A stretch of 64,000 nt of DNA, taken from assembly GCA_020080175.1 (NCBI GenBank), contig JAGHQL010000085.1:44608-108607 (forward strand), read 5' to 3'. The notes under the pieces were generated by a model. The model did not search any database, had not been told where the DNA came from, and worked only from the letters and a program-made list of their open reading frames with translations. Shown here in pieces: positions 32,885-55,125 of the stretch (its first letter is position 1; each line of letters starts with the position of its first letter). A program made the translations under genes and the position numbers. The stretch comes from Glutinoglossum americanum. Its lineage: Eukaryota > Ascomycota > Geoglossomycetes > Geoglossales > Geoglossaceae.

Positions 32885-34105
32885 TGCAGTTGGGATAATG
32901 CCGCCTACAAGTACAAAATCGTCGACTCCGTTGAGAGCATATCAAACAAGAAGGATCCAGTAGACTGTGCCTTTGTCATCCGCCGGCGATTTGGTATGTA
33001 CTTGTTTTTTCCACTGGCTGGTGCAGATGCTAATGCTCCGCAAAACAAGTCAAATACAACCTATGGGTACTTTGTGGACATTAAATCGGAGGGGCTATGA
33101 GACATCCTTCGCAAAAATTTGAAAGAAGTCAAAGGGTTCCCTCTGAGAGAAGATAAATCAACAGTAAGAAAGCGGAAGCATATTTGATATGCCATTCTTC
33201 TGGGATCGGATTTGGGTTAGTCCGAAACCCCTATTCCGCTATCTTATCCAATTCGAAAAGGACCTGGCTTTTCGGAAAGGATCTGCTCACCAAGGCCCTG
33301 CGGAGCCCGGTAACGCTTCATCTCATATACGGCAGCTGGAAGTATTAGTGGAATTCCTCAAGGGTCATTACGTATCTACCATTGAAAGCCGACAGGCACT
33401 TTTGGAACATGGCGAGATCAGATTTGACCTGCTCTGGACCTTGTTCCCGCCCAATACAATTGTCTATACCGAAAGCTACGAGTTCAACCTACCCAGATGT
33501 CTTAAGTTCAACTGGAGCGAAGAGGAGAAGGTTCGGGGTGGCAGAGTGTTCGTGCTCGATTGTTGTTATCTTGGGTATGATGGGGAGAGCCTTGGTGACG
33601 CTTCCATTTTGCTTGTGATCGAAGAGTTCTGAGGTGGGGGGGAATTAGATCCCTGGACGTTTTTCCTCCGATTTATTACGAGAAAGTAGAAGAGGTGAGG
33701 AGCAATCTTATCCAAATGGGGCGAACGTTTATCTCCCTGAAAGGGATGCACCATCGAGAATACGAAGGTTTCGCGTTTGTAAGGAAGGACCGAAAAGTGA
33801 ATATGGTATACACGAGAGGCAGAGTTATGATTGACGTAGGCTCATTCAAGCGGAGATGTCCAAACTGCGAAACCCCGAAGATCAAAGCTAGCTCATTTGG
33901 GGTATACACCGTCGTGGACACCCCCGCGAAAGAATCGAACCATATCACTAAAAAGGATTACGCTCTATGAAGTGAAGAAGGGAATTTTAATCTGCAGCCC
34001 AACAGCGTCTGGATTTATCTTCAGAAGTAAGGGGTGGGGCATCTTCTCGGTCTATCCACTGTTAAATAAATCTATAGAATTCTACATCTTTTCCTATCAG
34101 CGCTA
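32885..34105 (+). pseudogene. N-terminal half of a DUF7025 AAA-ATPase gene, broken
   Basis: Fungal AAA ATPases with an N-terminal DUF7025 domain (relatives of Bcs1/Yme-type ATPases, many in accessory regions) carry blocks that I can read here in several frames. In order they are: YKYKIVDSVESISNKKDPVD near 32905; DIKSEGL then an in-frame TGA then DILRKNLKEVKGFPLREDK near 33080; GEIRFDLLWTLFPPNTIVY near 33410; VFVLDCCYLGYDGESLGDAS near 33550; SLDVFPPIYYEKV and MGRTFISLKGMHHREYEGF near 33650-33770; and LICSPTASGFIFRSKGWG near 34000. The TGA stands where CGA (Arg) is expected. A frame shift follows at a run of Gs near 33632-33640 and another near 33965. The ATP-binding AAA domain itself is absent. 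Confidence 0.7.
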
Positions 34106-34612: not shown

Positions 34613-35449
34613 CTATACAGCCGAAACGAATACTTCTCCAGATTCCATGGTACATTCGTTACGGTCGCCTTCTAAGGTAATCTCATCCTCAAGATCCACC
34701 TCAATCATGTCTTCTACCTCGCTTTCGAGATACCTTGGCCTATCGTATCTCTCCCACCATGCTTTCTTCCCCAGCGTCATCTTATCCACCTTGTTGCTTG
34801 CAAACCAGCTCCAGCGGACCTTGCGATACTGCACTGCGTATATCTGCTCGCCCGGCGCTATGAAATGTCTTTGCTCACCCTCCATACGATGGCGAATGCC
34901 ACCAACCCCAGGGTCCGCTATGTTGGTGAACGGTAAAACCACACCGGATGCTGCTAGCGCTGTTGATACTGTTGATATTGGTATCGCTAAGCTCCCACCG
35001 GCAGCGCTTCCACCCCCAAGCTGCTCTATTATTCGAGTGTCGAGTAATGTGTGATAGGCTACCACCAAATATATGTCTTCTCCTTCGTCGATGATTTGTT
35101 CGATCCACTTCTGAGTTTCTTTAGATTGTACGGCATCTCGAAACCATTGCCCCGCATTGTTTAGATAGTACGTCTTGGCTTGGTCAGCTGAAATCCTTAT
35201 TGACGCTTTGAGACACTTCGAGAAAGAGGAGGAAAGGAAGGTGGTAAGCTGTGATGCTACGTTTTGATTCTTGACAGAGTGGTGAATGCTGTCGTACTGG
35301 GCTTGGACCCTCTCAATGACTTCAGGGCTAGAGTTGCAAAGAGGATCGTAGAAATCTTGATGAGGATGGTCCAAGCTAGTAACGAAACGCCCCAGGCTGA
35401 CGGCCGACGGCGGGAGAAAAAACTGCGAAAGTAGGATACTTGGAGGCAT
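34613..35449 (-). CDS. 278-aa partner of the TPR-CHAT gene; candidate gasdermin-like effector
   Basis: This single-exon, uninterrupted gene starts at 35449 (MPPSILLSQFFLPPSAVSLG) and diverges from the TPR-CHAT gene, with 310 bases between the starts. Visible blocks are AGQWFRDAVQSKETQKWIEQ, a strand-like hydrophobic GEDIYLVVAYHTLLDTRI, a Gly/Ala/Ser-rich segment with SLAIPIS and GVVLPFT, and GEQIYAVQYRKVRWSWFASN. The last 48 residues are strongly acidic (16 Asp/Glu). It has no signal peptide or clear membrane helix. I have a general memory of a fungal family of this layout but no named domain. Known biology places fungal gasdermin-like genes (RCD-1/HET-Q1 type) next to S8 or CHAT protease genes, and length, single exon and context fit; the gasdermin assignment is inference. 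An alternative is an unrelated regulator of the CHAT protein. Confidence 0.8.
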   Translation of the reverse strand: MPPSILLSQFFLPPSAVSLGRFVTSLDHPHQDFYDPLCNSSPEVIERVQAQYDSIHHSVKNQNVASQLTTFLSSSFSKCLKASIRISADQAKTYYLNNAGQWFRDAVQSKETQKWIEQIIDEGEDIYLVVAYHTLLDTRIIEQLGGGSAAGGSLAIPISTVSTALAASGVVLPFTNIADPGVGGIRHRMEGEQRHFIAPGEQIYAVQYRKVRWSWFASNKVDKMTLGKKAWWERYDRPRYLESEVEDMIEVDLEDEITLEGDRNECTMESGEVFVSAV

Positions 35450-35759
35450 TGCAGGAAATTTTTACTATCGCTGGAGTGAGAGATGTCTACAAGAATACTG
35501 CTGCGAAATATTGGAGCGACTGTTTGACTTGAATTAGGTGCGGGAAGCTCACCCTACTTGGTAAATGCATGGGAGCAAAGGCGGTGCAAAAAAACAAGCA
35601 TTTTCTGACGTGGCTAGCTGTGCTGCGCCACACTCTTCAAGCTGAACTAGTAAATATTCTAGTGCCCTGCACACTATTCTACATCTCCAAATTTAAGGGT
35701 CCTGCAAAACGGTTTATCAAGCTCGCCTCACTTATCTTCACATTCTATATCCAGTAGCT
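35450..35759. promoter_or_regulatory. Bidirectional promoter of the CHAT/partner pair
   Basis: The two start codons face away from each other across 310 bases with no room for another gene, so both promoters lie here and co-regulation is likely. The stretch ends in a pyrimidine-rich tract before 35760. Confidence 0.6.
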
Positions 35760-38669
35760 ATGGATGACGACGTCGACATTGACACACATTTGCTTGAGAA
35801 CTCCGAGCTTTTAAGCGTAGTAGCCGGTGAAGACAACAGCCTCAAAACAGAGCTATGTATGCACTATGCTGTGTTAAAAATGAAGCTTTTCGAGCGCTGG
35901 GGACGAATAGAAGACCTTGAAGAAGCGATTGAGAAGGGGAGGCATGCTGTAATAGAAACACGAGAGGAGGATAAAGCCTACGCAGGGAGGCTAAGCAATC
36001 TGGGGGTCATGTTTGTTTACCAATATGAACGCACGGGGAAGATAGAGGTCCTCGAAGAGGCCATTCGAGTATCGAGGCAGGTAGTCAATGTCACACCTAG
36101 AGACCATCCAGATCTCGCAGGGAGGCTAAACAACCTGGGAAACAAACTCGGTCGCCGATATGAACGTATGGGGAAGATGGAGGACCTCGAGGAGGCCATT
36201 CAAGTAGCGCGGCAGGCAGTCAACATCACACCTAAAGACCATCCAGATCTCACAGGGAGGCTAAACAACCTGGGAAACAAACTCGGTCGCCGATATGAAC
36301 GTATGGGGAAGATGGAGGACCTCGAAGAAGCCATTCAAGTAGCGAGGCAGGCAGTCAACATCACACCTAAAGACCATCCAGATCTCGCAGCCCAGCTAAA
36401 CAACCTGGGAAACAAACTCGGTCGCCGATATGAAAGTATGGGGAAGATGGAGGACCTCGAGGAGGCCATTCAAGTAGCGAGGCAGGCAGTCAACATCACA
36501 CCTAGAGACCATCCAGATCTCGCAGCCTGGCTAAACAACCTGGGAAACAAACCCGGTCGCCGATATGAACGTATGGGGAAGATGGAGGACCTCGAAGAGG
36601 CCATTCAAGTAGCGCGGCAGGCAGTCAACATCACACCTAAAGACCATCCAGATCTCACAGGGAGGCTAAACAACCTGGGAAACAAACTCGGTCGCCGATA
36701 TGAACGTATGGGGAAGATGGAGGACCTCGAAGAAGCCATTCAAGTAGCGAGGCAGGCAGTCAACATCACACCTAAAGACCATCCAGATCTTGCAGGGAGG
36801 CTAAACAACCTGGGAAACAAACTCGGTCGCCGATATAAACGTATGGGGAAGATGGAGGACCTCGAAGAGGCCATTCAAGTAACCAGGCAGGCGGTCGACG
36901 TCACACCTAAAGACCATCCAGATCTCGCAGCCCAGCTAAACAACCTGGGAAACCAACTCGGTCGCCGATATGAAAGTATGGGGAAGATGGAGGACCTTGA
37001 AGAAGCCATTCAGGCAACTCAACAGGCCTGGAGATGTGAAAATGCCACTCCTTTTGTTCGTATACGCGCCTCCACTCGGGCGCTCCGGCTGCTCCAAAGT
37101 CGAAGGGACTTTGAGAGCGCATACAGTCTCTCCGTGGAGGCTATAAACCTGCTACCTTATGTTCACAATAGATCCCTAGACAATCAGGACCAACAGTATG
37201 TTATCTCGCACTTTTCTGGATTAGCTACGACTACCTGCTCTCTCGCTCTCCAAACGGGACAGGGGCCCGAAGCCTCCTTAGAAGTTCTAGAGCAAGGACG
37301 CGGAGTTATCCTTAGTCTCCTTATGAATGATCAGAGTGACACCTCTGAACTAAAAGTAGCCTATCCCCAGCTGTGTGCGCGATATGAAAGTCTTCGTTTA
37401 GAAGTGAACAAACCTGCCGAAAATATTTCAGATGATCATACGCGCAGGACTGCTTCAATGAGCCGGATAGAAGCAATTGCAAAGCTTGAGAAATGTGTAC
37501 GAGATATCCAGCAGCTTCCTGGGTTCGGCCAATTTCACAAAGGCCTTACTGCAAAGCAGATGCAGAGCTGTTCCACAGAAGGCAGTATCGTCGTTGTGAA
37601 CGTTACCGACCTCAGGAGCGATGCCATAATTATTACTGCTGATGTATTTAAGGTCCTCCCGCTTGCGAGTTTAAGCGTACACCAAGCTAAGGACTGGATT
37701 AATCAAGACCTTACCACGACTTCGTCAAGCAACCGCGGTCGCAAAAACAAAGTCTACCTTCAATTCTTGTCATGGCTGTGGCGTGAGAGCGTGAAGCCTG
37801 TGTTGGACGAGCTTCACTACTACGGGGAACCTTCCGCAGAAAATCTACCAAGGGTCTGGTGGATCGGAACTGGCCTTGCTAGTTCCTTCCCTTTTCATTC
37901 TGCTGGCGATATATCTGTTGAGCCGACGGAAAATGCGTGTTACCGGGTCATTTCGTCCTACACACCAACGCTTAAGGCCCTTCAATATGCCCGATACCAT
38001 GCCGGGACTGGCATCCCGTCTCGCCATGATCCTCGGAAAATAGTTATCATAACTATGCCTAAGACCCCAGGTGCAAGTAATCTTCCAGGGACAGGAGCAG
38101 AGAGGTCTGAGATTATAGCAGCTACGGGGTCCTCTGTTTCCGTAAAGACCCTGGAATACCCTGACGTCGTAAGCGCTACGGCTCAACTCCAGGAGTGCAA
38201 CATCGCTCACTTCGCTTGCCATGGGGTATCAGATCCAGCCGATCCTTCCAGGAGTGGCCTGATACTGCAGACGGCTAGGACAGCTGACGAAGAGCCAAGG
38301 CAGGACATACTGGGTGTTCGCGAGGTATCTCAGGCCCATCTCTTGCGGGCGGAGATTGCATACCTCTCTGCCTGCTCGACCGCGCAGAACCAGGCGATAA
38401 GGCTTCAGGATGAAGTGCTCCATGTTGTCAGTGGGTTCCAGGTCGCTGGATTCAGGCATGTAGTTGGGTGTCTGTGGCCGTCTGACGACAAAGTATGCGT
38501 AGAAATTGCGAAGTCGTTCTACTCCGAACTTAATCAAGGTGGAACTATGAGTTACGATGATAGAGCAACTGCATTGGCATTGCACAAGGCCGTTGTAAAG
38601 GTTCGAAGAAGTAATGAATACCGCAGGCGGCCGCTGCTCTGGGCGCAGTACGTGCATTTCGGGGCATGA
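35760..38669 (+). CDS. TPR-CHAT protein (caspase-like protease fold with TPR array)
   Basis: The 969-aa protein has about 25 leading residues, then nine units of 45 residues (from about residue 28 to 432), each containing LNNLGN, GRRYE and EDLEEAIQ, a TPR-type helix pair. A helical linker (about 433-620) follows, and then a C-terminal CHAT domain. CHAT domains are caspase/separase-like peptidases: the catalytic pair is visible as His821 in AHFACHGVSD and Cys872 in YLSACSTAQN, followed by FQVAGFRHVVGCLWPSDD and ending LLWAQYVHFGA, the usual CHAT terminus. It is a single exon with no stop or frame break. In bacteria and fungi TPR-CHAT proteins act as proteases that activate a neighbouring effector. 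Here the neighbour is the divergent 278-aa gene. The TPR period of 45 is longer than the usual 42 of fungal NLR-type TPRs. Confidence 0.93.
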   Translation: MDDDVDIDTHLLENSELLSVVAGEDNSLKTELCMHYAVLKMKLFERWGRIEDLEEAIEKGRHAVIETREEDKAYAGRLSNLGVMFVYQYERTGKIEVLEEAIRVSRQVVNVTPRDHPDLAGRLNNLGNKLGRRYERMGKMEDLEEAIQVARQAVNITPKDHPDLTGRLNNLGNKLGRRYERMGKMEDLEEAIQVARQAVNITPKDHPDLAAQLNNLGNKLGRRYESMGKMEDLEEAIQVARQAVNITPRDHPDLAAWLNNLGNKPGRRYERMGKMEDLEEAIQVARQAVNITPKDHPDLTGRLNNLGNKLGRRYERMGKMEDLEEAIQVARQAVNITPKDHPDLAGRLNNLGNKLGRRYKRMGKMEDLEEAIQVTRQAVDVTPKDHPDLAAQLNNLGNQLGRRYESMGKMEDLEEAIQATQQAWRCENATPFVRIRASTRALRLLQSRRDFESAYSLSVEAINLLPYVHNRSLDNQDQQYVISHFSGLATTTCSLALQTGQGPEASLEVLEQGRGVILSLLMNDQSDTSELKVAYPQLCARYESLRLEVNKPAENISDDHTRRTASMSRIEAIAKLEKCVRDIQQLPGFGQFHKGLTAKQMQSCSTEGSIVVVNVTDLRSDAIIITADVFKVLPLASLSVHQAKDWINQDLTTTSSSNRGRKNKVYLQFLSWLWRESVKPVLDELHYYGEPSAENLPRVWWIGTGLASSFPFHSAGDISVEPTENACYRVISSYTPTLKALQYARYHAGTGIPSRHDPRKIVIITMPKTPGASNLPGTGAERSEIIAATGSSVSVKTLEYPDVVSATAQLQECNIAHFACHGVSDPADPSRSGLILQTARTADEEPRQDILGVREVSQAHLLRAEIAYLSACSTAQNQAIRLQDEVLHVVSGFQVAGFRHVVGCLWPSDDKVCVEIAKSFYSELNQGGTMSYDDRATALALHKAVVKVRRSNEYRRRPLLWAQYVHFGA
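35841..37055 (+). repeat. Tandem 135-bp coding repeat (nine TPR units)
   Basis: Units start every 135 bases at 35841, 35976, 36111, 36246, 36381, 36516, 36651, 36786 and 36921. The first two and the end of the last are diverged; the six from 36111 to 36920 are almost identical at DNA level. The units at 36246 and 36651 are identical base for base over 135 bp as far as I can read. This pattern points to recent unit exchange or duplication, keeping the frame. Confidence 0.95.
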
Positions 38670-38896: not shown

Positions 38897-39603
38897 ATAT
38901 ATTTTTACCCCTGCAATCGAACCCTTCCAAACCATAAATCCCTCGAGCAGCACCTCAGCACATCATCTCGCCACAGTGTCATAGATACCAAAGATCCTTT
39001 AATTCCGCCGCAGCCAAACGGCAGCATCTTGCCAGCTCTACAAGCCACCATATCTGCATCGATTGCTCTGATCGGCCGGACTACACATCGGAAGACGGCT
39101 TGGATCAGCACCGAGCAAGCATTTACCATTACTGTATTCCCTGCAATAAATATCTCAGCACCGCCGCACAGTTAACCAGGCATGACATAGCTGTTCATAA
39201 CTTGTGCGAGATCTGCAAATCCTACTCCAACACTCCGCAAAATCTCAAAGCGGCATGAGACAAAGACCGTTAAATGCTACGGTTGCCATAAATTTCGCTC
39301 TCTGTCGGCAATGCTACTTCACCTCGAGTCCGGTACATGTGAATGCGGGATTGAGTGTGACGATATTGTGGAATTGTCCTCCGAATGCTACCAGCCGCGA
39401 TACTTACGTCCGACTACGGTGATTGCCCGTTCCAATGCCCCACGTGCACTAGCCAATTTTATAGCATAAGCTCCCTCTTTCAGCATGTCGAGAGCGGCTA
39501 CTGTGATGAAGCAGCAACGTCTGGAAGCCCACTAGGGAAGTTTCTACAGTTTCTGAAAACAAAGAATATAAAAGTGTTATCTAGTAACTTCCTCTCACTC
39601 TGC
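38897..39603 (+). pseudogene. Broken multi-C2H2 zinc-finger gene
   Basis: Pieces of a fungal multi-finger C2H2 protein can be read in all three forward frames. They are CNRTLPNHKSLEQHL (38914 on); HICIDCSDRPDYTSEDGLDQ, YHYCIPCNKYLSTAAQLTRH and NLCEICKSYSNTPQNL (39050-39250); RHETKTVKCYGCHKFRSLSA with MLLHLESGTC (39250-39345); and FQCPTCTSQFYSISSLFQHV followed by ESGYC and SPLGKFLQFLKTKN (39430-39570). The LxHLESGxC block and the final finger are typical of this family. At least three frame changes and stops separate the pieces, so no intact product is possible. Confidence 0.7.
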
Positions 39604-40194
39604 ATAATAGCACCCGTTGTTTTCCCCGCTATATCCGGCTTATTGGAGAAGGAAGAAATTCAACGGAGAAACGAAGGGCACCAATTGTTTCCAATAAAGA
39701 AATTACTCATGTCTGCTTCCAGTGTCAACCTCTCAATTTTCTCTCGTGGTGTTTCGCCCATGCATCTAATCTCCTATTTCTCCTCGCTTTAAACACCGCT
39801 TCCCTCGACCGTACCTGCTCCCGCGTAAGATCGTTTTAGATGTAACCATTTTCTGCCACGCTCCTATCGAATTCTAGAAGCTTCGCCTATCGCTGTGGTG
39901 AATTACCAGACTATATATTCATGCCTACCCCCAGACCCCTCCATGAAATAGAGATATAAAGAAAAATATAATTGTAGGCAAAGCAGGAATATAGCTTCCG
40001 ATACAATCTCTCTTCCCCCCCCGAGCGGGGGACCGCCCACTCAAATGCAGAAGCACCCACGCTTTCTTAGAATTCTTTGCGTATTCTACAGAAAAGAGTA
40101 GGAAGATAAATTACTATCAACTTTACATACTTCAAGACTCTCCGGCCAGGGCGTTCTGCCCCGGGTAGGAGACTGTATATATAATGTTAGAATA
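39604..40194. other. Intergenic
   Basis: No gene is recognised. A short C run followed by GAGCGGGGG near 40013-40030 forms a small GC-rich hairpin. Confidence 0.35.
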
Positions 40195-46800: not shown

Positions 46801-48004
46801 CGAGTCTAATAATACTATTCCAGGAATCTCAGCAAGTCTCATCATCCTCAATAACGTCACCTATCCAGACAAGGTCTATGGAGACCTTGTCCTCCCGAGG
46901 TTCGCCAGGTCATCAACACCAAGCCTCAGTAAAGCTCCAGACAACCTCGCGACCTTCAACTTGAGAATTCCGGTCCTCCAGCCCCAGATCTCATGCGATA
47001 CCATACCATCCAAAGGTATCGAGGTAGAGGTTCTCCGAAATGGGAACTCCACCACATTTGGGCCCGCCATTGCTATTCCGCTCCTAAGCTGCGCTGGTCT
47101 AAGCCCCTTTGGCGATGCTGTTCCTCTAAAGACTGACTTCGACGCTGGAACTATCCCCCCAAATGGCTACTTCGGAGGTGTAAGGTTTTGGGGAGGCTGC
47201 CCCAACTTTTTTGTCGTTTTCGGCAAGGCCGGTAAGAACAGCATCGAGGACGTCAGCGCTCTTGGCTGCACCGGATGGGTCTCCGAAATCCAGGCTAGCT
47301 TCAACTTTACCTTCAATAACTTTACCTCCAACTTTACCATCTCTAAGCCGCCTGAAATACATCTGGAGACTTCACGAAACATCTCCAACGTTAGCTTAAG
47401 TATACTTCAGCCTCTCTTTGGGCCTGTAGACTTAGCGCCGAACGGTAGCACCAGTGCAGTAGGCTCATTTCTACAGGCTGCAATATACGGGGTTAATGGG
47501 GTCCGCCCGGAAGACCTGCTAGGCAGGAATGGAACCAATACTTCGCGCTTAGAGAATCGTGTAGCGGAACTCTATCGGCTCACGGCCGCCCAATACATAG
47601 ACCGGGGATGGCGGCGGGATATCAATTCAACAAGCGCAGAGGCTTCTGCGCCGGAGAACACCTTCCACGGATTTATCGAGTTTAAAGTCAGGCCGCAGCT
47701 GAAGCAAAACATGCCGGAGACGAGAATTCTGGACAGTCTTCTTGGGGCTATCTTCATCTGCGTCCTCGCCACATATATCCTGATTTGGCCTGGCCGAGCT
47801 ATCCCCGATGTCCCCAAGAACCCCCACGCCATTGCCTCGGTGGCTAGTCTCTTTGCGGGCTCAAGACTAATGAGGGATCTGCAGGGGACAGGAAGTATAG
47901 ACCCATGGGCCGGAAAGACCTTCTCGTTGGAGGAGTGGACTGAGGAGGGGGGAAGGTTGAGGTTTGGAATCGATCAGGATAATTTACCTCAGCCCTCGGC
48001 CTGA
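43822..48004 (+). CDS. Large DUF3433 membrane protein
   Basis: The first ATG is at 43822 (MSEHGQTGRQADEEP). A Ser/Pro/Asp-rich cytosolic leader is followed by the first membrane segment, LVSLMLLLIVSLAVNAVLIY. A normal intron at 44444-44510 joins PTA to IITILQFCWSRLDFRACHLQ, the DUF3433 signature region (Trp, Asp and the LQPW block), then STLMPKKLCVAVKNRHWMVV. The protein has two DUF3433-like halves, each ending in an RHW/RKHW motif followed by a membrane helix, separated by a Lys-rich low-complexity run (46238-46295). The second ectodomain carries clustered N-glycosylation sites (NFTFNNFTSNFT). The model gives 1371 aa. Function of the family is unknown; the glycosylated loops suggest a plasma-membrane or cell-wall-facing role. 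Confidence 0.85.
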
Positions 48005-49254
48005 TAGTTAGGTGGAGAGGTTCAAGTGGTACCGGGAGATGGGTCTGGTGGAAGTGGGAACTTAGGGCTCGATTCCTACCAAATTGAAGCCTGACTGATG
48101 GAACCAGGATAGCTTTTTCACTACTGAGTTTAAATCTCTGTGGGGGGGGAAGAAATCAAAAATGCGCTCTCTTGAGATGATATATATATACCCCCATTGA
48201 TTTTGCCATATTATTTCACTTCACGGTTATCGGCAATACCGAGATATGAGTCAAGAGCCCCCATCTAGCTGCGGTATGGCAAGGGGTGCTATGCGTTAAG
48301 GGAGGAGCTACAATCCTAGAGATTTCAGTTGGGTTTGAGAATAAAGTCAAATTCGTAATTTATTAATTCAAAAGCAAACTATCTACACATACAACCTTTG
48401 TATGTTAGTCAGCCTGAGAGGTACAATGGGGGAAACGAAGGATGGGGGAAGGCCACAGTGCAATGCATGCATGGTGTGGGACCGGAGGTTATGTGTTGTG
48501 GTTGGGACGCCGATCAACATCCGGTGTTAACAAATGGGCGTGGCCCAAATTGTGTGGCCCCTATTCACTGACACAGGGTCGCCGGCGGGGACTTAACACT
48601 TGGAGTATATAGGGTCCCGCGAACACCAATGTACTTAGTTTCTTCTACATACTTTACACACTCTCTCTACTCCGTACGGTAGCTAGCTAATACAATTCTT
48701 CTACACCATACGTTCAATACATGGGTACTGCTGATTTAGAAAATAACCTCATCAAAAGCAACCGCAGGAGCAGAGAGGGGTGGGAGAATGGGAATTGAAA
48801 ATCGAGAATGGGAGGTGGAAATGGGCGATGACTTTTATGTTATTTATTGCCCAGCAGGGGGGAGAGCCGACAGAGCGGCAAGCAATCGGCTGATGCGCGC
48901 TTTACAGCGTGGAGGCCGCAAGGTGACCTGCCCGGAGGGTTCTAGGGCAAGTCTTGGCGTTCGCTTCCTATGTATTCTCCTCGTAGCTAGCGAACACACA
49001 ACGGCCTACCACCCAAGCACAAACCCGGCGACATCACAACAGTTACACGATCGAGGCAACCCCCATAGGTGGGAGGCGAGTCCACTAAGATAAAATATGT
49101 ATCCCAAATCAGTTTTAGTGATTTTGTGTCTAAAAAGAGAGGGTTTGGTTGCTGTTTTTGAAGGCATTTCTATACTTATTACCAGCTCTTATTGAATCGG
49201 CTGCCCGCTTACCTAAGCTAAAAGAATAATTCATCCACTTAATTTTAGGATAAG
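48005..49254. other. Transition from genes to repeat DNA
   Basis: There is no convincing gene. A 101-codon frame at 48788-49093 has no motif. A (TA)n tract lies at 48180-48190. Confidence 0.4.
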
Positions 49255-49256
49255 TA

Positions 49257-49442
49257 CAGAGGCCCACTGCAAAAGTATTAAGAATTTCGCTTAGGCTCCA
49301 CCCTACTAAAATCCAGTTATGACTCTAGTTAAGCTTATACCTAATTAGTGCAAGATATTTTGGTGGGGTGGGATTGTGTTGGTGAGGTCGCTTAGCTGGG
49401 AGTTTAGGCGGCAATTCTTAATTCTTTTGCAGTGGGTCTCTG
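49257..49442. mobile_element. 186-bp MITE with Tc1/mariner-like ends
   Basis: The ends are inverted repeats of about 30 bases (left CAGAGGCCCACTGCAAAAGT, right the reverse complement with a few changes) and are flanked by TA on both sides (49255-49256 and 49443-49444), the target of Tc1/mariner elements. It has no coding capacity. The same terminal sequence, less AT-shifted, is seen at 60504. Confidence 0.85.
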
Positions 49443-49559
49443 TACTTCTCTTTCTATTACAGTTTTGTCTCATAATATTATTATTATTTGTTTATTAACG
49501 TCAGTTATCACCTATCTGCCAATATCACCCACTCACCACTTTTTTACAAGCCCATTATC

Positions 49560-50293
49560 TCTCTACTTTAACATGCATTTTCTCTATAACTATTCAATAC
49601 TAGAATAATCTAAAGACGCTAGAATACTTTTAGCTATCAAAGCTCTTTGATCTAATCTGAAATTAAGGGTCTACATTACTACAAAAACTTATGATATGCC
49701 TAGAACTACTCTTCACAATAGAATAGATGGTAAGATAATTAAGGTGAAAATACAACTAAAAAACTAACTTCTAAATAAATTGAAGGAGAAAATTCTTCTT
49801 GAGCATATAATTAATTTAAACAATTAAGAACCTTTTCTAAAAATTGAAGCTGTAGAGGATATGACTAATTACATTCTCGTATTATGAAAGTAATAACACA
49901 TTGGTAAGCTTTGGGCATATCACTTTATAAAGCGTAACTCAAAGCTAAAAACACATTTTTCTTACTTCTATGACTTCTAATGAGCCTTCTGCAAAGATCC
50001 TAAGCTTATTAAAAGCTGGTTCCAACAAGTAACGGATATAAAAACAAAGTTTGGGATTTAAGATTACAACATATGGAATTTTGACAAGATAGACTTTATA
50101 ATAGGGATTATATCAAGCTTTATAATAGTTACATAAATGGAGCGAAAGGGTAGACATAAGAGAGTACAACCAGGCAATAAGGAATAGGCTATAGCTATTA
50201 CTTGCGTCAATACTAAGGGTTACAACATTCCACTATTCCTCCTCATTAAAGGTATCTACTACCTTGCTAATTGATATACGGAAGGTACTTTAC
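49560..50293 (+). pseudogene. Pogo/Fot1-type transposase relic, RIP-like decay
   Basis: Reading across stops, the DDE_1 transposase order is recognisable: KIKTKFGI-like block near 50035, YNIWNFDKIDFIIGIISS (catalytic Asp in NFD) near 50065-50115, ERKGRHKRVQPGNKE near 50140, and AIAITCVNTKGYNIPLFLLI near 50190. Many TAA/TAG stops and very high AT content are what RIP would produce. It is cut at 50293 by a solo-LTR-like repeat. Confidence 0.65.
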
Positions 50294-50542
50294 TGTTACG
50301 ACTATAGCAGCCTATGTATGGCTCATGTGTGGCCTGCTATAAGTTATGGTACTAGGGCTAACCCTTAGTGTTCTGTGCAAGGCTGGCGGAGCCTCAGTAT
50401 TAAGACTATGGCTCGCTGGCACTGTGCAGCCATACAGTGTTATACCTATATATATATAACTTTCACACATCCCACACCTTTCTTCTTCCTCTAGTTTAGT
50501 ATCGTCTTAATAGAATCTATCCAATACATCTTTCAGGCCCTG
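50294..50542 (+). mobile_element. Solo LTR family D, copy 1 (truncated)
   Basis: The segment begins TGTTACGACTATAGCAG and is matched in inverted orientation at 57817-58107. The 3' end is lost where the next LTR begins at 50543. Confidence 0.6.
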
Positions 50543-51016
50543 TGTAAGAACTCTCGATGTCAAGGCAACACAAAGGTACTCCAACGTCGAGAGGTCTAGA
50601 GGGTTTGATAACAGTGTGTCGTCGCACCTCGCAGCGATGACGATGGTTGGCCGACTGGTCTACGTCTAGGTAAGGCCTAGATGTATGAGGACTAATGGAT
50701 AAACTTGATGGTCGATGGTTTAGGGCGACTTGACGTCGGCCTGGTTTAGAATATAGAGTAGATGAAATAGACTTGATTCTAATGAGTAAGAGATGTAAAA
50801 GAACTGATCGCTGACCTCCAGCAGGAGGCCAGCAAGCCGCTTATATATACAACGGGCATTCAACAATGGAACAGACGTCATAAAGTAATAAGAATGTACG
50901 CTTGCGGAATCCATATAGCCATATAGGCAAGTCACCGTTTGCATAACCTGAGCTAGTTACCCAGCCGCAGAGACCTAAATGGCCTCGCCGGGTAACCGAC
51001 TGCAGGTCATGATACA
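50543..51016 (+). mobile_element. Solo LTR family C, copy C1
   Basis: The repeat runs TGTAAGAACTCTCGATGTC...GATACA (TG...CA ends, about 474 bp). It is the least mutated of the C copies and interrupts the family D repeat. No matching flanking duplication is seen, so one side has been rearranged. Confidence 0.7.
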
Positions 51017-51362
51017 TTCTTACAGTAATGCAATATTCTAACTATTATGTATTCACTATTATATATATATATGACCTACTAGCCTTCAAGCAAGAGGCCA
51101 GTAATCAGTCTTTTATATTTCCTGCCTGCTAGAATTAAGTCTATCCTACCTGCCATATATTCTAAGTTGGACCAATATATAGTCATCCCTAAATCATTAA
51201 GTCAACTCATTAGTCCTTATATACCTAAGTTTTATCTACATATAGGCTAGGTAACTAGCTATCATTGTTACTATAAGGTATGATATCATACTATTACTAA
51301 ACCTCCTGCAAACCCTTAGTGTCAGAGTACCTTCATGTCATCATGACATCGAGAGTTCTTAT
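51017..51362 (-). mobile_element. Solo LTR family C, inverted truncated copy
   Basis: The sequence is the reverse complement of the 5' two-thirds of family C, ending CATCGAGAGTTCTTATA. It lies tail to tail with C1. A further, more decayed inverted fragment continues to about 51500. Confidence 0.6.
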
Positions 51363-52337
51363 ACTACCTTATACTTCAAACTAGGCCAATATCTAGTTAC
51401 TTTTAAACTATCAAATTATTAAATCAATCTATTAGTTTTTGTATATCTAGAGCTTACTTAGATACAAATCAATAAGCTAGTTAGTATAGTTACTTGTTAT
51501 AGGTTTACTCTATAATACTGTTGTTATTTTGTATTGATATTATTCACATATTTGCTTAGTAAGCCTACTAGCCTATCCTTTAATACTTAATATATATAAA
51601 GATCTTTTCTTACTTTACTTTGCTCCTCATACAACCTCTTGTTCTTATACTTTTAATAAACTTCTCTTCATAAGAAATTCGACTTTATTTGCCTGGATTT
51701 ATCTAGCCAAATAGGCTTACTTAATATACTTGTTCTTCTGATAGCTTAATACCTTCCCTTTATATTTTATTTGTGACATTACTACAAGGTACAATATTAT
51801 ATTGTTTGTTATTATGTATTGATATTATTTATATATTTACTTAGTAAGTTTACTAACTTACTCTTTAATATTTTATATATATAAAGATTTTTTTTCACTT
51901 TATTTCTTCTTTATATAATCTTTTGTCTTTATATACTTAATAAACTTCTTCTTACAACAATTCTAACTTTATTTACCTAATGTTATGATAGCTACTAAGT
52001 AAGAGCCTAGCTGGCTATCAAATAAGTTGAGGAGAAGAACTAGCTTTAAAGAAAGCTAGTAGAGTATAGAGGAAACTACTTTACATATAATATATTAAAG
52101 CTAATGATATATGGATAGGGACTACAAGATCCCACCAATAATGTCATGAAGAACTCTATATAAAAGTACAACTAGCAAAGGAACTGCATGAGTATTATAA
52201 GAACCTCATATGAAAGCATAGCTGATAGTAAAGAAACTACATAAGTATTATAAGAACTCCATATAGAATCATAGCCTGGAAGTACAGCTGGTACCAAAGA
52301 AACTACATATGTACATAGGTAGAGAACTATAGTTAAA

Positions 52338-52679
52338 TGTCAGGTCTTAGGAGGGTGCTGCGGGCGCTTGAGGCTCGAGGGAGTCATTTGAGAGGTTGTT
52401 CGTGAACTCGCGAATGGGTTCTCGAGCTTGAATGGACGTCACGGCTCGGCAGGAGGTCCAGCAGAATGTCAGAGGCCAATAGGCTGAGTAGGAGGATGGA
52501 TTTGAGCCACCAGGTGGCTTCTATTAGATGAACTATATACAAGAGGTATGTTGACTGATAGAGGTTGAAGGATCAACTCTGTCAGTCAAAAAAGGAACTC
52601 GAGGGCTTGGCTTAAGTACAGACCCTATGCTAATCTAAGCTTACAAGCCCTGTCTCTTGTAACCCTATGTGCTGTGACA
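52338..52679 (+). mobile_element. Solo LTR family B, copy B1, perfect 5-bp target duplication
   Basis: The 342-bp repeat has TG...CA ends (TGTCAGG...TGTGACA) and is flanked by TTAAA at 52333-52337 and 52680-52684. A second copy lies inverted at 61133-61475. It is clearly more GC-rich than its surroundings, so it looks younger or less mutated. Confidence 0.88.
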
Positions 52680-52798
52680 TTAAAGGACTTACATAAGATC
52701 AATGGATGATTTTACTATTAGCTAATTAGAGGGGAGCCAGGTAGGCTCCTATCTCTTGACCTCTCAGGACTATTAATATATATAAGAGACCAAAGAGA

Positions 52799-53291
52799 TA
52801 TCATAACCCACGATTGGTTATCCAGCGAGGCTGCTGAGCCTCTATGGCCAAGTAATTAAATCACATGACATCAACGATATCTTATTCATATGATGATATG
52901 AACTTCGAAAGCATATATTCCAAAGTCAATACTGGAGGCTTGCATTCTTATAGCAATACAATCTCCTAACCATTATGCATTTACTATCATGTATATATAT
53001 GACTTGCTAGCCTCCCACTTAGAGGTCAGCGATCAGTTTTTTACATTTCCTGCCTGCTAAAATCAAGTCTATCCCGCTTACTATACTTTCTAAGTTAGAC
53101 CAACATATAGTCATCTTCAAATCATTAAGTTAACTCCTTAGTCCTTATATACCTGAGTCTTATTTACATGTAGGCTAGGTAGCTAGCTATGATTGTCACT
53201 ACAAGGTGCTATGTCACACCATTACCAAACCTCCTAAGAACTCTTAGTATTAGAGTACCTTTGTGTCACCTTGACATCGAAAGTTCTTACA
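52799..53291 (-). mobile_element. Solo LTR family C, inverted copy, perfect 5-bp target duplication
   Basis: This 493-bp copy runs in reverse orientation and is flanked by AGAGA at 52794-52798 and 53292-53296. It sits inside family A copy A1; removing it rejoins ACCAAAGAGA to GTCTGAAAAG, which matches the other A copies. Confidence 0.88.
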
Positions 53292-53525
53292 AGAGAGTCT
53301 GAAAAGAAACTTCATTAGTTAATATTCATAACTATCTTAAATAAACTATTAAGATTAATAAGTTTACTCTCTCTATTGTACTATATGGCTGGTCTTTCTT
53401 GCTCCTTCATAATTGGCCCTCTAGGGCTAACTTAACCCTAACACCTACAGCATCTACTCTTTGTGATCCAGCTTACATAAGTAACTATCATATTTGAACT
53501 TGCTTAGTTAAATAAACTTACCTAA

Positions 53526-53999
53526 TATAAGAACTCTCAATATCAATATAACATGAAGGCATTCTAATGTCAAGCACTTTCAGAGGTTTAATAATAGTAT
53601 AACGTCATACTTTACAGTAACAATAATGGCTAGCTAACTGATCTATGTCTATATAAGGTCTAGAAGTATGAGGACTAATAGATTAACTTAGTAGTTTGAT
53701 AGTTTAAGGATGACTAAACATTAGCCTAATTTGGAATATAGAGTAGGTGAAATAGACTTGATTCTAGTAAGTAGATAATATAGAAGAATTGATTGCTAAC
53801 CTTTAATAAGAGGCCAGTGGGTCACTTATATATATAGTAAGCTTTTAACAATGAACTAGATATCATAAAACTATAAAAATAGATACTTTCAGAATCTATA
53901 TCACTATATAGACAAGTTACTGTTTGTGTAACTTAAACTAGTTACCTGACTACAGGGGCCTAAATAGCCTCAACAGGTAACTGACTGCAAGTCATAATA
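53526..53999 (+). mobile_element. Solo LTR family C, copy C2
   Basis: The 474-bp copy is strongly AT-shifted. It is flanked by CCTAA (53521-53525) and CTTAA (54000-54004); the single difference is a C-to-T change. Confidence 0.8.
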
Positions 54000-54025
54000 C
54001 TTAATATACTTATTCTTTTAATAGC

Positions 54026-54488
54026 TGTAAGAACTCTCGATACCAAGGTGACATGAAGGCACTCCGATATCGAAAAATCTAAGGAGTTCGATAACAGTAT
54101 GATGTCGCACCCTGCAGCAATAACGATGGCTGGCCGACTAGTCTGCATCTAGGTAAGGTCTAGATGTATGAGGACTAATAGATAGACTTGATGGTCGATG
54201 GTTCAGAGCGACTTGATGTCAGCCCAGTTTAGAATATAGAGTAGACTTAATTCTAGTAAGTAGGAGATGTAAAAGAACTGATCGCTGACCTCCAGCAGGA
54301 GGCCAGCGAGCTGCTTATATATATGACAGGTATTCAACAATAGATCAGACGTCATAAAGCAATAAGGATGCATGCTTGTAAAATTTATATAGCCATATAG
54401 GCGAGTCGCTGTTTGCGTAACCCGAGTTAGTTACCCGGCTGCGGAAGCCTAAATGGCCTCACCGGGTAACCAACTGTGGGTTATAACA
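54026..54488 (+). mobile_element. Solo LTR family C, copy C3
   Basis: The 463-bp copy begins TGTAAGAACTCTCGATACC and ends GGGTTATAACA. It is inserted in repeat E between ATAGC and CTTAATAC. The flanks ATAGC and ACTGC agree at only three of five positions. Confidence 0.75.
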
Positions 54489-54540
54489 ACTGCTTAATAC
54501 TTTCCCTCTATATCTTATCTATAATAACTATATAAGTAAG

Positions 54541-55125
54541 TTACTATTTATATAATCTGAGCTAGTTACTTAGTTACAGAGACCTAAATGGCTTCATTAA
54601 GTAATCAACTATGAGTTATAATAATATAATAAAACTATTTATTTTTGTTAATAAATCATCTGTAAATAATAAAAACTTAACTTTTCAAATTGATTATAAG
54701 ATCTTCTCTACAAATAAAATAACTATAAATAATATTTTTATAATAGCTGATAACTTGATCTACTAGAGTTCAACAAAATATAAATATATAATATGAAATA
54801 TATTAGTATTAAAAATTTATGCTGTAATTTATAGTATTGATATATAAATTACAATTAACACTACTATCAATATAATTACTATTAAGTTAGGAATCTTTAA
54901 GATCTTTTTGATTATATGTATAGATTCATTTTTATTCTATAAGTATCTAGTCAAGCTTGATATAATAAAAGAAAAGTATCTTATAATTAATATTATAAGC
55001 TTACAGTAATTATATAAGTACTAAGAGTTGTTTAAAATTTAGTAAATTTATAAACAAGACAATCTTGTAAATATAATGATAAAAAGTAATATAAACTATA
55101 CTTTATAGATATTTATAAACAAGAA
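54541..55125 (+). pseudogene. AT-rich relic, possibly retrotransposon polyprotein
   Basis: Reading across stops gives NKSSVNNKNLTFQ and IFIIADNLIY, which loosely resemble the protease/pre-integrase segment of copia-type polyproteins. Composition is extremely AT-rich and the match is weak. Confidence 0.25.

Follow-up and report, generated by a model that had tools for sequence, protein, structure and literature searches.

The question raised by this locus is whether two neighbouring genes of Glutinoglossum americanum, one for a protein with TPR repeats and a CHAT domain and the other for a 278-aa protein, work together as a protease and its pore-forming effector. A first-pass annotation of the window (the whole stretch of DNA that was analysed, 64,000 nucleotides) had described an intact single-exon pair with a shared 310-bp spacer and a CHAT domain carrying His821 and Cys872. 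We found both reading frames, divergent and each uninterrupted from ATG to stop, with 310 bp between the two ATGs, and the CHAT domain matches PF12770 with the two residues located in HFACHG and SACS, so this description holds. The pair has the appearance of a self-contained cell-suicide switch, and we consider it highly probable that they form a two-gene module for regulated cell death in which a CHAT sensor-protease frees a pore-former by removing its acidic tail. The features of the locus are as follows.

34613-35449, minus strand: gasdermin-like effector gene, 278 aa in a single open frame (family, and gasdermin fold in two models)
34754-35449, minus strand: predicted pore-forming (gasdermin N-like) domain, residues 1-232 (AlphaFold2 and VIA-align to the RCD-1 pore)
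34613-34732, minus strand: acidic C-terminal tail, residues 240-278 and stop codon, a putative inhibitory fragment
35450-35759, no strand: intergenic region between both start codons, 310 bp, shared promoter (from ORF positions)
35760-38669, plus strand: TPR-CHAT sensor-protease gene, 969 aa in a single open frame (ORF and Pfam)
36048-36992, plus strand: seven 45-aa (135-bp) TPR units, residues 97-411, with 93% mean pairwise nucleotide identity
37764-38663, plus strand: CHAT protease domain, residues 669-968 (Pfam PF12770, E 1.1e-34)
38220-38222, plus strand: codon of catalytic-type His821 (HFACHG), kept in 23/23 linked CHATs
38373-38375, plus strand: codon of catalytic-type Cys872 (SACS), kept in 23/23 linked CHATs

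The adjoining accessory genes had been described as broken, and frame breaks are indeed present at two flanking stretches: a DUF7025 gene piece (33168-33970) is spread over two overlapping frames and a weak zinc-finger match (38938-39792) over several. Introns may explain these breaks, and their reading as damage is tentative. AT-rich, RIP-like sequence lies about 9 kb from the gene pair. A scan of the 310-bp intergenic region for bacterial-type promoters gave nothing informative.

The 969-aa protein carries near-identical TPR units and a conserved catalytic pair

Besides the CHAT domain, the 969-aa protein matches the Pfam family TPR_10 (E 4.8e-39). No NACHT or NB-ARC domain is found among the best 25 of its 27 Pfam families, and we do not file the protein as an NLR, though it may act in the manner of a contracted receptor. 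The catalytic-type residues are widely kept. His and Cys are both present in all 23 CHAT proteins that share a contig with an effector relative (the linked CHATs, below), and among the 120 CHAT proteins listed the His is kept in 119 and the Cys in 116.

Across the seven TPR units, 14 positions vary in amino acid and 4 vary only silently, and the most variable positions are 26, 9, and 25. A second CHAT gene of the same genome, on contig C43, has 23 TPR units that are most variable at positions 32, 36, 25, 9, and 7. Fungal NLRs are described as having TPR units that closely resemble one another but are hypervariable at sites of their concave face, and concerted evolution together with positive selection is argued for these units (PMC4986451). 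By this resemblance in sequence, the TPR repeats of the 969-aa protein appear sensor-like, and the near-identical repeats of such a receptor could be read for specificity.

The 278-aa protein is modelled with a gasdermin fold

A Pfam scan of the 278-aa protein returned a single meaningless match (E 0.71), and the same scan of 66 family members at E<=0.1 returned 11 weak families, none of them in more than 3 members. The frame is nonetheless more than chance, because 149 database proteins, among them its own record, match it at E<=1e-3 (best 120 of 149 listed). The family thus recovered comprises well over a hundred proteins without an informative name. A. lentulus and A. felis are among the species names in it.

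Sequence searches against the PDB gave no match to the 278-aa protein with phmmer, and two family profiles returned two and one weak, unrelated chains and no gasdermin. In structure searches, AlphaFold2 models of the 278-aa protein and of a homologue with 45% identity to it both ranked gasdermins first. At E<=1e-3 the Foldseek matches are gasdermins in 9/9 cases for each model, and the best of them is the Neurospora RCD-1 pore (E 2.6e-6 for the 278-aa model, 4.5e-9 for the homologue). The top VIA-align rows are likewise gasdermins for both models, and the alignment to the RCD-1 pore covers residues 8-232 of the 278-aa model. The Neurospora crassa proteins RCD-1-1/RCD-1-2 (PDB 8jyx, 8jyy, 8jyz) are thus the best structural match over the pore domain and are of similar size, at 14-18% aligned identity and with no HMM match.

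Model confidence is moderate, with mean pLDDT of 63 for the 278-aa protein and 68.5 for the homologue, values below 50 at hairpin tips and tail, and low TM-scores by query (0.41 and 0.46). The 278-aa model has long strands at residues 44-62, 78-96, 127-145, and 193-212 and low-confidence loops at 60-79 and 146-190, and across the family conservation is higher in the long strands than in the loops that join them. For the homologue model, MACPF pores come directly after the gasdermins (E 1.2e-3), and one cytolysin-like pore stands at rank 22, above the last gasdermins. From these models, a gasdermin N-domain fold for the 278-aa protein is supported.

The first-pass annotation had offered two identities for this protein, gasdermin-like or a new effector family, and had proposed a structure model with a Foldseek search. 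That search brought up gasdermins ahead of all else for the two models, rather than a confident fold unrelated to pore-formers, which favours the first identity. We dropped the second, a new non-gasdermin effector, after the fold searches, in which MACPF and cytolysin chains fall mostly below the gasdermins.

An acidic tail follows the aligned domain

The aligned domain ends at residue 232, and past it residues 240-278 form a stretch of 39 residues and 4.4 kDa with a net charge of -13. The charge of this tail is negative in 66/66 aligned family members (median -11), and that of the body is near neutral (median +1). The alignment holds 66 of the 120 listed homologues, and a second one holds 73 of 128 listed; mostly fragments and near-copies were removed by hand in each case. 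Conservation extends to residue 241, position 245 is variable (its commonest residue occurs in 20% of rows), and a conserved acidic block occupies 246-255. Cleavage would probably fall near the start of the acidic tail, at about residues 233-247. Because the tail is modelled at pLDDT below 50, its presumed inhibitory role is argued from charge and conservation.

If the tail is inhibitory, the CHAT protease would act by removing it. One might instead suppose that the gasdermin-like pore-former runs without proteolysis, that allelic partners activate it, and that the linked CHAT protein serves as co-receptor or scaffold. The closest structure is consistent with this idea, since RCD-1 is described as activated by allelic partners and not controlled by cleavage (PMC12881547). 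The same protein is also described as having no inhibitory C-terminal part (PMC11760362), in contrast to the acidic tail of every aligned member of the present family, and the catalytic His and Cys are kept in every linked CHAT. We regard activation without proteolysis as improbable.

We think it more improbable still that the CHAT protein cleaves the 278-aa protein to yield, on the same fold, a fragment that binds lipids or signals and forms no pore. There is precedent for such a product, in that Csx29, a TPR-CHAT protein of type III-E CRISPR systems, cleaves Csx30, a sigma-factor binder and inhibitor (PMC10028731), and some gasdermins have been suggested to have lost pore formation (PMC8742441). 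Yet the best match of both models is RCD-1 in its pore state, and the better conservation of the long strands than of the intervening loops also speaks for a pore. Release of a pore-former by removal of its tail is the reading that we carry forward.

Effector and CHAT genes are linked across fungi

The first-pass annotation had proposed a family search and a count of neighbouring protease genes. We collected 77 effector contigs, each of at least 4 kb, from the homologues listed (best 120 of 149 and best 120 of 177), and compared them with the 120 CHAT proteins listed of 1175 matches, within a protein-length range. For the homologues of other species, linkage rests on identical contig sizes and on locus tags. 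A CHAT protein is found on at least 23 of the 77 effector contigs, the window's own included, and this number is a lower bound because 120 of the 1175 CHAT matches were listed, within that length range. As a control for the matching of contig sizes, nine offsets gave 0, 1, 0, 0, 0, 0, 0, 0, and 0 matches.

Nine linked pairs have consecutive locus tags (MGYG_02591/02590, FQN57_004573/004572, N7507_003716/003717, CNMCM5623_004430/004429, N7479_000695/000694, VN97_g390/g389, TRUGW13939_00290/00291, N7478_011245/011246, and N7474_010705/010706), and in one further pair the tags are two apart (GP486_005019/005017). Linked pairs occur under species names that we take to represent several ascomycete classes. 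Among viral contigs, 51 stretches matched a pattern and 0 encoded a relative.

The linked CHATs are confined to one part of the CHAT set. Among the 120 listed, all 23 fall with the 81 that have at least 50% identity and 0 with the 39 below, and in a quick tree of the 120 all 23 lie in a group of 83 rows and 0 in the other 37. Inside the 83-row group they are scattered, with 18 changes, compared with a mean of 21.3 after shuffling (14/500 shuffles were as low). Over the 23 pairs, effector and protease distances correlate with r 0.80, above all 2000 permutations (maximum 0.31), and nearest neighbours agree in only 13/23 pairs. From these results we conclude that the effector family has an inherited link to one CHAT clade.

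For the remaining 54 of the 77 effector contigs, no mate is found in the list of 120 CHAT proteins (of 1175 matches). In Penicillium cosmopolitanum the effector and a CHAT protein lie on different contigs (N7509_003892 and N7509_001143), and P. riverlandense has a second effector member, N7474_010683, without a mate among the CHATs listed. True single effectors probably exist. The expectation that homologues lie next to protease genes is thus borne out for many members, which are linked to a TPR-CHAT gene.

A chance neighbourhood of two unrelated accessory genes carried along by duplication, for which one could cite the RIP-like sequence near the pair and the 54 contigs without a listed mate, is hardly credible and already disfavoured, given linkage across what we take to be several ascomycete classes, consecutive tags, mirrored distances, and the location of this genome's other three CHAT genes on contigs without a 278-aa match, where nothing similar is seen alongside by eye.

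Two family members carry TPR units themselves: in P0114 one unit precedes the gasdermin part, and in P0241 units follow it. These fusions may be gene-model errors and are not counted as proof of interaction.

Proposed mechanism

For the tail-removal module, the computed support consists of open genes, a gasdermin fold in models, a conserved catalytic pair, inherited linkage, an acidic tail, and sensor-like repeats. From this we infer that cleavage occurs and where, that the tail inhibits, that a pore forms and the cell dies, and what kind of cue is sensed. The diversifying TPR array of the 969-aa receptor would sense a cue (non-self, infection, or cell damage), and the sensed cue would switch on the caspase-like CHAT domain through His821/Cys872. 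The active domain would then cut the 278-aa gasdermin near the start of the acidic tail, at the site proposed above, and free a piece of about 4-5 kDa. The released gasdermin domain would oligomerise in the plasma membrane, where its hairpins would insert and the cell would die. If true, two genes hold everything from sensing through caspase-like cleavage to pore formation. We know of no biochemical demonstration that a CHAT protease cleaves a fungal gasdermin.

Comparison with known systems

The first-pass annotation noted that most fungal gasdermin-like genes adjoin an S8 or CHAT protease gene. Of about 1900 fungal gasdermins reported, about 80% lie near a protease gene, about 63% near an S8 gene, and 19% within 10 kb of a CHAT gene (PMC10197012). 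CHAT domains occur in about 17% of gasdermin-linked fungal proteases (PMC10989679; compare PMC12881547), and such proteases often bear TPR, WD40, or ANK repeats (PMC12881547). The gasdermin-CHAT two-gene clusters of Clave et al. 2022 are the same kind of pairing (PMC10197012). The pairing in fungi is therefore already known (PMC10197012, PMC10989679, PMC12881547), and the subfamily here is unnamed; we found no account of it in the portions consulted of reviews and other papers on fungal gasdermins and CHAT proteases.

HET-Q1 of Podospora anserina is also 278 aa long, and its partner protease removes the last 40 residues, about 5 kDa, with F238 as P1 (PMC10989679). That partner, HET-Q2, is a 388-aa S8 serine protease (PMC10989679), unlike the TPR-CHAT protein here, and we liken HET-Q1 by description only. 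Csx29 shares the TPR-CHAT design, and its TPR part passes activation on to the His/Cys pair of the CHAT domain; it differs in being bacterial, in being switched on by an RNA-guided complex, and in that Csx30 is a sigma-factor inhibitor (PMC10028731). Bacterial gasdermin-protease operons likewise link protease and effector, in a bacterial rather than a fungal host.

At hetB of Aspergillus fumigatus, which we also liken by description, a CHAT protease allele has an incompatibility role confirmed by expression, and this one locus has the CHAT gene and a 149-aa ORF as its idiomorphs, unlike the neighbouring genes here (PMC11138114). Two questions posed in the 2024 hetB paper are the identity of the protein cut by its CHAT protease and the possible involvement of a gasdermin (PMC11138114). 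Given its A. lentulus and A. felis members, the present effector subfamily is a candidate target of a hetB-type CHAT. A wider proposal, which we offer as speculation and think doubtful, is that CHAT-driven incompatibility in Pezizomycotina has this subfamily as its gasdermin arm, and that CHAT het genes, hetB among them, have their target here. The system would then be an inflammasome shrunk to one protein, with a self-diversifying TPR array reading non-self and a caspase-like domain cutting off an electrostatic tail to unleash a pore-former.

Fold and genomic linkage support the earlier reading, and cleavage, pore, and trigger are its predictions. The pair makes the mechanism testable through its intact catalytic site, defined candidate tail, and inherited link to one CHAT clade, and being compact it offers a candidate substrate with a short segment where the cut can be sought.

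A second copy in the same genome

A Pfam search of the genome gave at least 5 CHAT loci, and a search with the 278-aa protein gave matches only on C302, the contig of the window pair, and on C43. Alongside the other three CHAT genes, inspection by eye of ORFs of at least 130 aa within 10 kb revealed no similar frame, a search in which a distant gasdermin could be missed. The genome has ten S8 protease matches, none of them on C302 or C43.

C43 holds a second divergent pair. Its gasdermin copy has six stops (two TGA and four TAA), and its CHAT domain lies in an open frame of 1705 aa from stop to stop. The CHAT parts of the two copies share 428/542 residues, and dN of 0.116 against dS of 0.512 shows that the CHAT frame has been under constraint since the copies parted. 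Given this copy, the CHAT protein may also be of use where a local gasdermin is lacking.

The second divergent pair and the window pair

The TPR-CHAT gene of the second pair in this genome, on contig C43, is an open frame of 1705 aa, and its repeat number differs greatly from that of the window TPR-CHAT gene, the 45-aa TPR unit occurring 24 times on C43 and seven times in the window. Sequence comparison also showed that the final 86 nt of the window CHAT gene have a match in inverted orientation (86 nt, 79%) on the far side of the broken C43 gasdermin copy, and this match is the trace of an additional CHAT copy.

L005:604-5721, contig C43: second TPR-CHAT frame
L004:9392-9476 and L005:3-262, contig C43: broken gasdermin copy and inverted CHAT match
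L011:41-3025, contig C56: 994-aa frame near another CHAT gene
Window 33168-33970: DUF7025 gene piece, spread over two overlapping frames

Assessed by eye, the C56 frame looks like a candidate NACHT-ankyrin receptor.

Joined domains in gasdermin-like homologues

In P0242 (Geoglossum umbratile M1839_001464), the gasdermin part is followed by a stretch of PNP_UDP-like appearance, and a Pfam scan of the protein gave no match for this stretch; P0242 may represent either an effector fusion or a faulty gene model. In P0241, which also has a weak homeodomain match, TPR units of the same type as the window array follow the gasdermin part. In P0114 such a unit, recognized by eye, precedes it.

Surroundings of the window pair

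The DUF7025 piece is apparently truncated. Window positions 48001-64000 are AT-rich with a RIP-like dinucleotide bias (TpA/ApT 1.14-1.39 versus 0.71-0.88 elsewhere in the window), and this stretch contains a weak match to MuDR-transposase (56576-57541).
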